From Mycobacteriales bacterium (GTDB lineage Bacteria; Actinomycetota; Actinomycetes; Mycobacteriales; SCTD01): 64,000 nt of DNA. Positions 14,087 to 17,331 of this stretch are shown one piece after another; within the stretch, counting starts at the first letter, position 1, and each line of letters starts with the position of its first letter. A program made the position numbers and the translations under genes. The stretch lies in contig JAUJOY010000001.1 in NCBI GenBank assembly GCA_030447385.1, forward strand, positions 623,629 through 687,628, in the 5' to 3' direction. The notes under the pieces were generated by a model, which saw nothing but the letters and a program-made list of their open reading frames with translations, was not told the DNA's origin and did no database searches.

Positions 14087-14983
14087 TCAGAGCTCGGAGA
14101 GCGAGACCTGCCGGAACAGCGGTATCGCCCTGTCCTCGAGCGCGTCGCAGGTCAGCCGCTCGCGGCCGCCACCGGAGCGGTCGTAGCGCACGACCACCTG
14201 CAGGTCGGGCCCGCCGGGACCGCGCAGCCGCACGGCCCACGCGTCGACGCCGGCACCCACCTGACCGACCGGAGCGAGGTCGTCCACCCGCCACCGGCCG
14301 GACGCCTCACGGGCCAGCTGCTGCGCCGCCTGGACCGGGAGCGGGAGGCTGCTGCGGCCGCGTACCTGTCCCGCCGGGAGCAGCCCGGCCGCGAGGTCCT
14401 CCATCACGCGCACCGCCTCGTCCTGCTCGATCCGGCCGAGGTAGAGGCCGTCGGGGAGCACCACGACGTTGGCCGCGAAGCGGTCGCCGCCGACGTGGGT
14501 GCACTCCCAGGTGCGGTCGGGGAAGCGGTCGGCAAGGCGCTGCGCGACCGGCCGGCCCCGGATCGCGCAGCAGCGGTCGTGCCGCCCGTGCGTGCACACG
14601 AGGTACAGCGGGCCGTCGAAGCCGTCCCAGCCGGCGGCGGGGGCCTGCCCGTACGGCGGCTCGAGGTCGGCCAGCGCGGTGTCGACCTCGACCCGGCACG
14701 TGCGGACCTGCTCGTTGCCGGGCCGGCTGTCCACCGCGTAGACCCGGCGTCCGTCCTCGGGAGGGACCCCTACGGGACGCCGGATCAGCAGCAGGCGGGC
14801 TCTCGTCGACGCCGCGACGCCCGCCAGCGCCCGGGCCACGCTGATCGACATCCGGCTGCTCGGGACCGCCTCCGGCCCCCAGGCGCCGGGGTGCTCCACA
14901 AGCAGCCAGCGCTCGACCCGGCTGGCGGTGGCGAGCAACGGCTCGGCGCGCTCCCGGGACGCTCCCGAGCACAGGTCGCTCAT
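14087..14983 (-). CDS. Sucrase/ferredoxin-like (Suc_Fer) protein
   Basis: 298-aa protein of the sucrase/ferredoxin-like family, a thioredoxin-fold group related to small [2Fe-2S] ferredoxins. Motifs: CTHGRHDRCCAIRG (Cys130, Cys138, Cys139) and CTHVGGDRFAAN (Cys161). A cluster or redox function is plausible but unproven. ATG 14983 is chosen over longer in-frame starts because TACGGT, a -10-like box, lies seven bases upstream, a leaderless layout. It follows the JmjC gene by 58 bases on the same strand. The own promoter means it may be transcribed separately from the two upstream genes. Confidence 0.78.
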   Translation of the reverse strand: MSDLCSGASRERAEPLLATASRVERWLLVEHPGAWGPEAVPSSRMSISVARALAGVAASTRARLLLIRRPVGVPPEDGRRVYAVDSRPGNEQVRTCRVEVDTALADLEPPYGQAPAAGWDGFDGPLYLVCTHGRHDRCCAIRGRPVAQRLADRFPDRTWECTHVGGDRFAANVVVLPDGLYLGRIEQDEAVRVMEDLAAGLLPAGQVRGRSSLPLPVQAAQQLAREASGRWRVDDLAPVGQVGAGVDAWAVRLRGPGGPDLQVVVRYDRSGGGRERLTCDALEDRAIPLFRQVSLSEL

Positions 14984-15041: not shown

Positions 15042-16226
15042 TCAGGCCGGGACCACAGCCCCTTCACGCAGCATCCTGCGGGCGAGCACGAGGGCGCCGG
15101 CCTCGTCGAGCCCGCCCAGCAGCAGGTCCGCGGGCCGAGCCGGCCCCGTGATCAGCCGGGTCAGCGCCGGTGCGACGAAGGCCGGCAGCCGCACGGACCG
15201 GCCCGGCAGCTCGAGGCGCACCGAGTCGCCCTCGACCAGCGGCGCCAGCGGGATGCCCCTTCGCGGTCGCAGCGGCGTCCGGAGCGTCAGGCCCTCCGCC
15301 GCCACGCTCCCGGCGAGCAGACCCAGCGGCTCAGGGCGCACGGCACGGGCGAGCCGGCGGCGCACGGCCGCCTCCACGTCTGCGGGCGGGAGCTGCTCGA
15401 GCCATGCGGCCGCGCTGCGCAGGAACTCGGGGAGGGCCGCCCCCACGAGTCCGGCCGGCGACACCGGCAGGGCCTCGCGGAAGGACGCGTCCTCGGCGGC
15501 GAGGGAGACCGCGTCGGTCAGCACGTCGTACCAGGTGGTGGACAGCACCCCGACCGTGAGGTGGACCGAGTGCTCGTCGGTGGTGAGGGCCGCGTGCACG
15601 TACCCGCGCGGGAGGTAGAGCGCGTCGCCCCCCTCCAGCTCCACGTCCAGCAGCGGCTCGGCACCCTCCGCGACCAGGTGCGCACCCGCCTGCGGCTGCG
15701 AGGGGAGCGGCAGCCGGAGGACCGGCTCGTGGACCACCCACCGCTTGCGGCCGCTGACCTGCAGCACGAACACGTCGTGGGTGTCGTGGTGGAAGTCGAA
15801 CCCCTGGTGGCGCCCGCCGGGGGTGACGTAGGCGTTGCACTGCGTGGCGTGCCCGAGCTCCGCGGCCAGCTGCTGGCAGAACCGGGCGACCGGCGGGTGC
15901 AGCCGGTGCATCGACTGCAGGACCAGCGTCGCCCCGGCGGCGTACTGGGCCGCCAGCGCGTCCGGGTCCACCACATCGGCGATCCGCCGTGCGCCCGCGG
16001 TGACGGTCTGCACCGGCACCGGCAGCGATCCTCCGTCCGAGACGGTCCGGAAGAAGGGCGTACGCAGCGCACGGTCCGCCACGAGCTCGTCGACCTGCGC
16101 GAGCGACAGCAGGTCGTCGAACGCGGCCGGCAGCTGCTTGGCGCGTGACAGCAGCGGTGCCCGCGACCAGTGCTCGGCGGCGAACGTGGCCGGGTCGACC
16201 GAGACCGCGCGTGAGAGGGCGGACAT
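15042..16226 (-). CDS. JmjC/cupin-4 family 2-oxoglutarate oxygenase
   Basis: 394-aa iron/2-oxoglutarate oxygenase of the JmjC (Cupin_4) group, which includes ribosomal oxygenases that hydroxylate Arg or His and other protein hydroxylases. Visible core: GFDFHHDTHDVFVLQVSGRK, with the HxD iron ligands His146 and Asp148, and SVHLTVGV with the third ligand His222. YLPRGYVHAAL between them fits the family, and a C-terminal winged-helix-like part follows. ATG 16226 lies 29 bases after the stop of an acidic small gene on the same strand, which makes that peptide a candidate substrate (inference). An ordinary ribosomal-protein substrate is the alternative. Confidence 0.85.
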   Translation of the reverse strand: MSALSRAVSVDPATFAAEHWSRAPLLSRAKQLPAAFDDLLSLAQVDELVADRALRTPFFRTVSDGGSLPVPVQTVTAGARRIADVVDPDALAAQYAAGATLVLQSMHRLHPPVARFCQQLAAELGHATQCNAYVTPGGRHQGFDFHHDTHDVFVLQVSGRKRWVVHEPVLRLPLPSQPQAGAHLVAEGAEPLLDVELEGGDALYLPRGYVHAALTTDEHSVHLTVGVLSTTWYDVLTDAVSLAAEDASFREALPVSPAGLVGAALPEFLRSAAAWLEQLPPADVEAAVRRRLARAVRPEPLGLLAGSVAAEGLTLRTPLRPRRGIPLAPLVEGDSVRLELPGRSVRLPAFVAPALTRLITGPARPADLLLGGLDEAGALVLARRMLREGAVVPA

Positions 16227-16255
16227 CGGCCCGCTGCGGGAGGCCGCGGGCCGGC

Positions 16256-16477
16256 CTAGCTGTCGCTCGCGTCGGCGTCGCCGCTGCCGCCCTGGTCCGC
16301 GTCCCCGCCGCCGGATCCGGAGTCGGTGCCCGCCGGGTCGATGCCCGCGGGGTCGACCTGGGTCTCGCCGCTGTCCCCCTGGTCGGCGTCCCCGGCGCTG
16401 TCGCTCTGATCGGCGTCCCCGCCGGGCAGGGTCATGGTCGGCGTGGTGGTGATGTCCTCGTCGCGCAGCGTCGTCAC
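16256..16477 (-). CDS. Asp/Gly-rich small protein upstream of JmjC oxygenase
   Basis: 73-aa acidic protein. A conserved-looking head, [20 protein letters not shown], is followed by a low-complexity tail built from [12 protein letters not shown] and GDAD units. Near-repeats are [18 protein letters not shown] and [14 protein letters not shown]. No Cys, His, Lys, Phe, Tyr or Trp occurs in the protein. GTG 16477 has a strong GGAGG (plus-strand 16483-16487) five bases upstream. A head followed by repeats, next to an oxygenase gene, resembles a precursor peptide with leader and core, or a secreted-type calcium-binding repeat, though no signal peptide is seen. I do not recognise the family with certainty. 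Confidence 0.7.
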
Positions 16478-16632
16478 GAGAGCCTCCGGCAGGTCGGGAC
16501 TGGTCGGCCGCGGGGTCCCGCGGCCCTGCCGCGGAGCCTCCCACGGTGCCCGGCCGCACCGGCCGGGGGCACCGGTGGCCCGCCCTCGCGGCACGCCGCG
16601 CAGGCAGGGCACCGGAGCGGCAGGATGGGCCC

Positions 16633-17331
16633 ATGACCCGCGCCACGCTGCAGAAGGACCCTGGCGAGGTCGCCGCCATGTTCGACGAGGTCGCCGCCCG
16701 CTACGACCTGACCAACACGGTGCTCTCGCTGGGCCAGGACCGGGGCTGGCGGCGGGCCGTCACCTCGGCGCTCGACCTCCAGCCGGGTGAGCGCGTGCTG
16801 GACCTCGCCGCGGGGACGGCGACGAGCAGCGCGGCGCTGGCGCGTACCGGTGCGCAGGTCGTGGGCTGCGACTTCTCCCTCGGCATGCTGCAGGTGGGGC
16901 GGCGGGCCGGGCACGAGGGCGTCGCGCTGGTGGCCGGCGACGCGCTGCGGCTGCCGTTCCGGGACGCCTCCTTCGACGCCGTCACGATCAGCTTCGGGTT
17001 GCGCAACACCAGCGACGTCGACCTGGCGCTGCGCGAGCTGCTCCGGGTCACCCGCCCCGGCGGGCGGCTGGTGGTCTGCGAGTTCAGCCACCCGACCCGT
17101 CCGGCCTTCCGCACGGTCTACGTGGAGTACCTCATGAAGGCCCTGCCCGCGCTGGCCGAGAAGGTCAGCAGCGACCCGGCGGCCTACGTCTACCTCGCCG
17201 AGTCGATCCGGGCGTGGCCGGCGCAGGCCGCGCTGGCCGATCGCCTGGTGGATGCCGGCTGGGCGCAGGTCGCCTGGCGGGACCTCACCGGCGGGATCGT
17301 CGCGCTGCACCGCGGCCTCCGGCCCGGCTGA
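16633..17331 (+). CDS. menG: MenG/UbiE demethylmenaquinone methyltransferase
   Basis: Class I SAM-dependent methyltransferase (232 aa) that makes menaquinone from demethylmenaquinone. Motifs: [21 protein letters not shown] at the N-terminus, the SAM-binding [24 protein letters not shown], and [12 protein letters not shown]. All are UbiE/MenG hallmarks. ATG 16633 is preferred over upstream in-frame starts because it begins the canonical N-terminus. Upstream it is divergent from the acidic-peptide gene. Downstream lie a menJ-like reductase and the complex I operon, which uses menaquinone. Confidence 0.92.

Follow-up and report, generated by a model that had tools for sequence, protein, structure and literature searches.

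The window analysed here is a stretch of 64,000 nt from contig JAUJOY010000001.1 of a Mycobacteriales bacterium (assembly GCA_030447385.1, forward-strand positions 623,629–687,628). Its minus strand carries, read in this order, genes for a small Asp-rich repeat peptide, a JmjC_2 oxygenase and a Suc_Fer-like protein (Table 1). The initial annotation had described an Asp/Gly-rich protein of 73 residues, with a GGAGG site, ending 29 bases ahead of a JmjC oxygenase, and the coordinates confirm this arrangement: the peptide gene starts with GTG, encodes 73 amino acids of which 16 are Asp, and its stop codon is followed after 29 bases by the oxygenase ATG at position 16226. The Suc_Fer-like gene, which that annotation did not include, is part of the same unit. 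The JmjC_2 and Suc_Fer-like genes are each present in one copy in the 3.4-Mb assembly. The divergent neighbour of the cassette is menG (16633..17331, plus strand), followed by a geranylgeranyl-reductase-family gene and then by genes that we take to be nuoA and nuoB. We considered menG and the reductase gene as possible members of the system and rejected them as a local feature, the synteny being found in only 12–16 of 121 loci. Those relatives that carry names are mostly Frankiales-type MAGs.

Table 1. Features of the peptide–oxygenase locus in the window
Feature	Coordinates	Strand	Basis or remark
73-aa Asp/Gly/Ser-rich repeat peptide, putative substrate	16256..16477	-	ORF reading and relatives
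Conserved peptide head, candidate recognition leader	16445..16477	-	Relatives; codon-position differences
GGAGG ribosome-binding site	16483..16487	-	5 bases ahead of start codon
JmjC_2 (PF08007) Fe(II)/2-oxoglutarate oxygenase, 394 aa	15042..16226	-	Pfam match, ligands, fold
Suc_Fer-like (PF06999) protein, 298 aa, third cassette gene	14087..14983	-	Pfam match, motif, adjacency
GC-rich perfect hairpin GGCCGCGG GACC CCGCGGCC	16506..16525	-	28 nt ahead of peptide start codon

The oxygenase matches JmjC_2 (PF08007) with an E value of 9e-26 and 90.3 bits against a cut-off of 22. The iron ligands listed in the initial annotation, H146, D148 and H222, are all present as H146-x-D148 and H222, the two histidines being invariant in the orthologue comparison, and an HxDxHD signature is found in 141 of 144 orthologues. 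The closest solved structures, by sequence as well as by fold, are the protein hydroxylases NO66, MINA53 and YcfD (NO66 4y33 by fold, E 2.9e-22; NO66 4ccn by phmmer, 3.7e-21). The model of the whole enzyme is of moderate confidence (pLDDT 71, pTM 0.55) and includes a predicted C-terminal winged helix at residues ~319–394, built as strand-strand-strand-helix-helix-helix with pLDDT of 80–94 over most of its length. The ribosomal oxygenases YcfD, NO66 and MINA53 carry a C-terminal winged-helix domain as well, so that its presence here is compatible with leader binding and not specific evidence for it. The predicted order of secondary structure elements is also that of the RRE, which passages of PMC12710340 define by strands followed by three helices.

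The hairpin upstream of the peptide gene keeps its stem in six relatives of the same clade (L002, L004, L005, L007, L032 and L035), where the flanks have changed and still pair, and in loci of families f16 and f15 other hairpins lie about as far from the peptide start. It is possible that the hairpin is an RNA or operator element. A general 5′ hairpin was rejected: it is clear in a few clades, and the overall value of 5.0 bp is only slightly above the 4.6 bp obtained in shuffles.

Conservation of the peptide–oxygenase pair

Genomes searched for the oxygenase numbered 121 from the order, 297 from the class and 246 from the phylum. Flanks of the full-length orthologues were taken and identical loci removed, which left 137 loci with enough upstream DNA. 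In these we counted ORFs that encode 40 aa or more, have a high content of Asp and small residues, and end no more than 260 bp upstream of the oxygenase; an earlier, stricter Asp cut-off misses 30 true peptides with ~13% Asp, and the looser criterion was used for the counts. Such an ORF precedes the oxygenase at 135 of the 137 loci, compared with 12 of 5835 random positions in the same DNA under the same criterion. The initial annotation had made its proposal depend on recurrence of the pair in other genomes, and the pair does recur. At 133 of the 137 loci the peptide is convincing by eye, two loci (L108 and L110) have an ORF that satisfies the criterion and is unlike the family, and two (L122 and L125) have no such ORF. 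The pairing extends from the family of the window's organism to distant members of the phylum, with enzyme identities of 35–75% and a spacing between the two genes that ranges from overlap to 229 bp. L108 and L110 (genus g102, family f48) have long-branch oxygenases, and their upstream acidic ORF ends in DPEL(S/A)GADLxEDQ...EPGA and lacks repeats; these loci can be read as cases of substrate change or loss.

Within the order, the distribution of the oxygenase orthologue is patchy (65 of 121 genomes). When the DNA of these 121 whole genomes was scanned for the HDGGADG pattern, 102 of 125 matches lay within 1.2 kb of the oxygenase, and the scan found no HDGGADG clusters in the 56 genomes without an oxygenase orthologue. 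An extra cluster occupies the first 200 bases of contig C9 of genome G077, at the contig end and away from the oxygenase, possibly as a second copy of the peptide. The plasmid search returned distant cupin paralogues only.

The third gene is a frequent companion of this pair. The Suc_Fer-like protein of the window scores 68.6 bits against PF06999 (cut-off 34.9), and the corresponding gene adjoins the oxygenase downstream on the same strand at 110 of 141 loci, the full order peptide–JmjC–Suc_Fer being found at 106 of 134. In three genomes of the window's own genus it lies 7–8 kb further on, on the same strand. No Suc_Fer-like protein could be detected in several f15 genomes (G015, G028 and G038) that keep the peptide and the oxygenase; the protein is thus a common helper that some can dispense with, and in these genomes another reductant may serve instead. 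The gene is also present in some genomes without the oxygenase and is therefore not exclusive to the cassette. The proteins have a CX8C...HX3D motif of the thioredoxin-like-ferredoxin type, and among 98 bacterial proteins the last ligand position holds Asp in 84 and Cys or Glu in 10. This is not the bis-histidinyl CX8CXnHX3H site, the second His of which is replaced in those 84 proteins, and at the level of sequence it suggests a different fourth ligand of the putative cluster. A PDB sequence search with the Suc_Fer-like protein gave no match, and its structure model, for which three sequences were eligible, reached a pLDDT of 44 and was set aside. No further neighbour family recurs widely in the flanks of the orthologue loci; one neighbour cluster of 44 loci was rejected, its members being, as judged from coordinates, apparent shadow ORFs antisense to Suc_Fer or to the repeats.

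Composition of the peptides and selection on their repeats

The peptides encoded at the oxygenase orthologue loci of the phylum display four repeat styles. The clade of the window has GDADQGDS...VDPAGSDPAG, most peptides have EGPADGGATPGQHDGGADGGA and runs of GGAD, family f8 has EGPADGGSNPEGHDGGADGTA, and DADGTDGDATDTTDGDA is found in family f41 and in more distant members of the phylum. None of eight representative peptides matched Pfam or NCBIfam models. Across 133 tails, Asp, Gly and Ala are the sole residues found in every one, and the last 60 residues of each tail include at least eight Asp. Asn is missing from 96 tails and His from 60, including that of the window; Cys is absent from all 133, and aromatic residues are almost absent. 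Since Gly and Ala are the other universal residues, and Asn and His are often lacking, Asp alone of the shared residues has a side chain that is obviously oxidisable.

Comparison of repeat copies within single peptides of relatives gave 76, 78 and 823 differences at codon positions 1, 2 and 3, respectively. Differences thus fall mostly at the third position, indicating that the amino acids of the repeats are kept by purifying selection on the protein. The corresponding numbers for the head in the window's own clade are 20, 10 and 95. The head, which precedes a variable core, follows the consensus L-x-[DE][DE][DE]-[IM]-x-[TS] and is recognizable from the window's own family to distant phylum members (TLRDEDITT in the window; ALDDDDMTS and LTDEDIETV elsewhere). 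Peptides without it occur at a minority of loci, mostly in one enzyme subclade (for example, L094, L096, L100 and L104); because some enzymes are paired with headless peptides, the head is not indispensable everywhere. The strict expression finds the head in 100 of 135 peptides, and the suggestion of the initial annotation that it is a recognition leader is more weakly supported than the conserved pair.

When the four repeat classes were mapped on a tree of 102 oxygenases, seven changes sufficed, compared with a mean of 37.8 in shuffled data (0 of 200 shuffles were as low), a comparison that by itself proves little, because near relatives cluster for ordinary reasons. More informative is family f41, which holds both enzyme types: each of its peptide types matches the relatives of the enzyme and not those of the organism, a pattern suggesting that the peptide and oxygenase genes both move and evolve as a unit.

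Distant oxygenases of other actinobacteria (28–38% identity) are accompanied by a second type of precursor, in which a leader of the VEEI/VEDL kind precedes a short core of Asp, Asn and Gly, such as PSDGGGTGRSDTND, AAADNDGNDG, NDSDGTDSS or DPDGSDG (loci L126–L130, L133, L135–L137, L142–L144 and L147). At L135–L137, a Suc_Fer-like gene lies downstream of the distant JmjC paralogue.

Proposed reaction and its alternatives

The genes and their order are conserved, the catalytic motif is intact, the peptide is under coding selection and its repeat type co-varies with the enzyme. We infer that such a cassette probably produces an oxidised Asp-rich peptide from a dedicated substrate by means of an Asp-hydroxylating JmjC oxygenase and a Suc_Fer reductant. 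The small repeat protein would be bound by the oxygenase, probably with its head on the C-terminal winged-helix domain and its repeats at the active site, where Fe(II), O2 and 2-oxoglutarate would be used to hydroxylate many Asp residues, most likely at C-beta, leaving a flexible chain with beta-hydroxyaspartates at intervals. Electrons to maintain the oxygenase iron in its reduced state most likely come from the Suc_Fer-like protein, presumably of the [2Fe-2S] type. That the repeats are substrates had been proposed in the initial annotation; by comparison, this reading is favoured by the constancy of Asp in the repeats, the protein-hydroxylase type of the JmjC enzyme and the conserved pair. 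Counting against Asp as the target, the structures nearest to the oxygenase belong to enzymes that hydroxylate His or Arg.

Those same structures invite the reading that the oxygenase is a ribosomal-protein hydroxylase resembling YcfD or NO66, the acidic repeat protein being a disordered partner, inhibitor or chaperone. Ribosomal oxygenases are its closest solved relatives, the C-terminal winged-helix domain generally known from YcfD, NO66 and MINA53 is shared, and the enzyme is single-copy in its own genome and has spread mostly vertically. However, ribosomal oxygenases do without a neighbouring repeat peptide of the kind found here at 133–135 of 137 loci, the repeat type tracks the enzyme, and a patchy presence in the order is unlike that of a universal ribosome modifier; we regard this explanation as quite improbable. 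Nor do we favour the idea that the short ORF regulates the oxygenase from upstream, as a ribosome-stalling or attenuation leader. Its position directly upstream and the own-clade hairpin ahead of its start codon would suit such a role, but repeat number and length vary widely, as does the gap to the oxygenase, selection acts on the repeats at the protein level, and the hairpin precedes the ORF rather than lying between it and the oxygenase. We reject this reading as highly implausible.

Somewhat less remote, if still unlikely, is that the peptide is the substrate of another reaction, namely, oxidation of Gly or His, cross-linking, desaturation or cleavage. Every tail does contain Gly and Ala, many have a conserved His in HDGG, and a title cited in PMC12710340 attributes macrocyclisation in RiPPs to a 2OG dioxygenase. 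Against this, 60 of the 133 tails, that of the window among them, have no His, Gly and Ala make poor targets for an enzyme of this type, and Asp is the sole reactive side chain common to all. Asp hydroxylation therefore remains our preferred reading.

As in RiPPs, a putative precursor is encoded beside a modifying enzyme and the two are conserved together. In flanks mostly of 1.5–3 kb, we found no recurrent protease, exporter or second modifying enzyme beside the cassette; a leader protease or exporter is a common trait of RiPP loci, not an obligatory one. Its absence from these flanks suggests that the product acts inside the cell, or that general proteases and exporters handle it. The likeliest use of such a product would be as a metal ligand. 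From what is known of siderophores and EGF domains, beta-hydroxyaspartates in a chain would be expected to bind Fe(III) or Ca(II) well, and beta-hydroxyaspartate iron ligands occur in non-ribosomal siderophores. More tentatively, and with considerable doubt, the cassette could define a new phylum-wide class of poly-beta-hydroxyaspartyl ribosomal peptides, made by a dedicated JmjC enzyme with a ferredoxin-type reductant and serving as intracellular or released ligands of iron or calcium, a gene-encoded counterpart of siderophore ligands.

If the substrate relation is true, bacteria across the phylum make one peptide with many modified Asp residues from a small set of genes, the peptide and one or two others. 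Such a phylum-wide spread makes a niche antibiotic unlikely and a basic role, in metal handling, stress or redox, possible. Repeat substrates would also join ribosomal proteins and single-site natural products as targets of JmjC protein hydroxylation in bacteria, and a function would be suggested for the Suc_Fer-like proteins of bacteria.

Comparison with known systems

Our search of mostly open-access full-text literature found no prior description of an Asp-repeat peptide/oxygenase system. NO66, MINA53 and YcfD (PF08007) have the same JmjC core, C-terminal winged helix and HxD...H ligands; unlike the family described here, with its extended HxDxHD signature, their hydroxylation targets are His or Arg in ribosomal proteins, and no repeat peptide is paired with them. 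Passages of PMC12710340 describe RRE-like folds fused to PF08007 domains, with bacterial homologues in RiPP-like genomic contexts. This remark concerns fish and algal proteins and distant bacterial homologues, and the passages found do not include Asp-repeat peptides, a Suc_Fer partner or the actinobacterial family.

Beta-hydroxylation of protein Asp by a 2OG oxygenase, as proposed here, is described for AspH in passages of PMC6817910. AspH differs in its unusual iron site, according to passages of PMC13168262, and in acting on disulfide-bonded EGF domains, whereas the cassette peptides are free of Cys in all 133 tails. The Suc_Fer-like protein resembles the thioredoxin-like ferredoxins Apd1 and Aim32 in belonging to PF06999 and in having CX8C followed by H. 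Aim32 is a [2Fe-2S] protein with a CX8CXnHX3H motif (PMC8482512); in the Suc_Fer-like proteins, Asp mostly takes the place of the last His, and the gene is linked to JmjC.

The hydroxylation of ribosomal peptides by JmjC enzymes has a precedent in BipG and PbsQ (PMC12707348, PMC12257519). In the biphenomycin-type RiPPs of BipG and PbsQ/BpmG, as in the cassette, a JmjC Fe(II)/2OG enzyme is encoded beside a ribosomal precursor and targets a side chain (PMC12707348, PMC12257519). There, a single ornithine is hydroxylated within a many-enzyme cluster that includes MNIO, radical SAM, arginase and peptidase components, whereas the cassette combines a putative long Asp-repeat substrate with an oxygenase that has only the Suc_Fer-like protein alongside.
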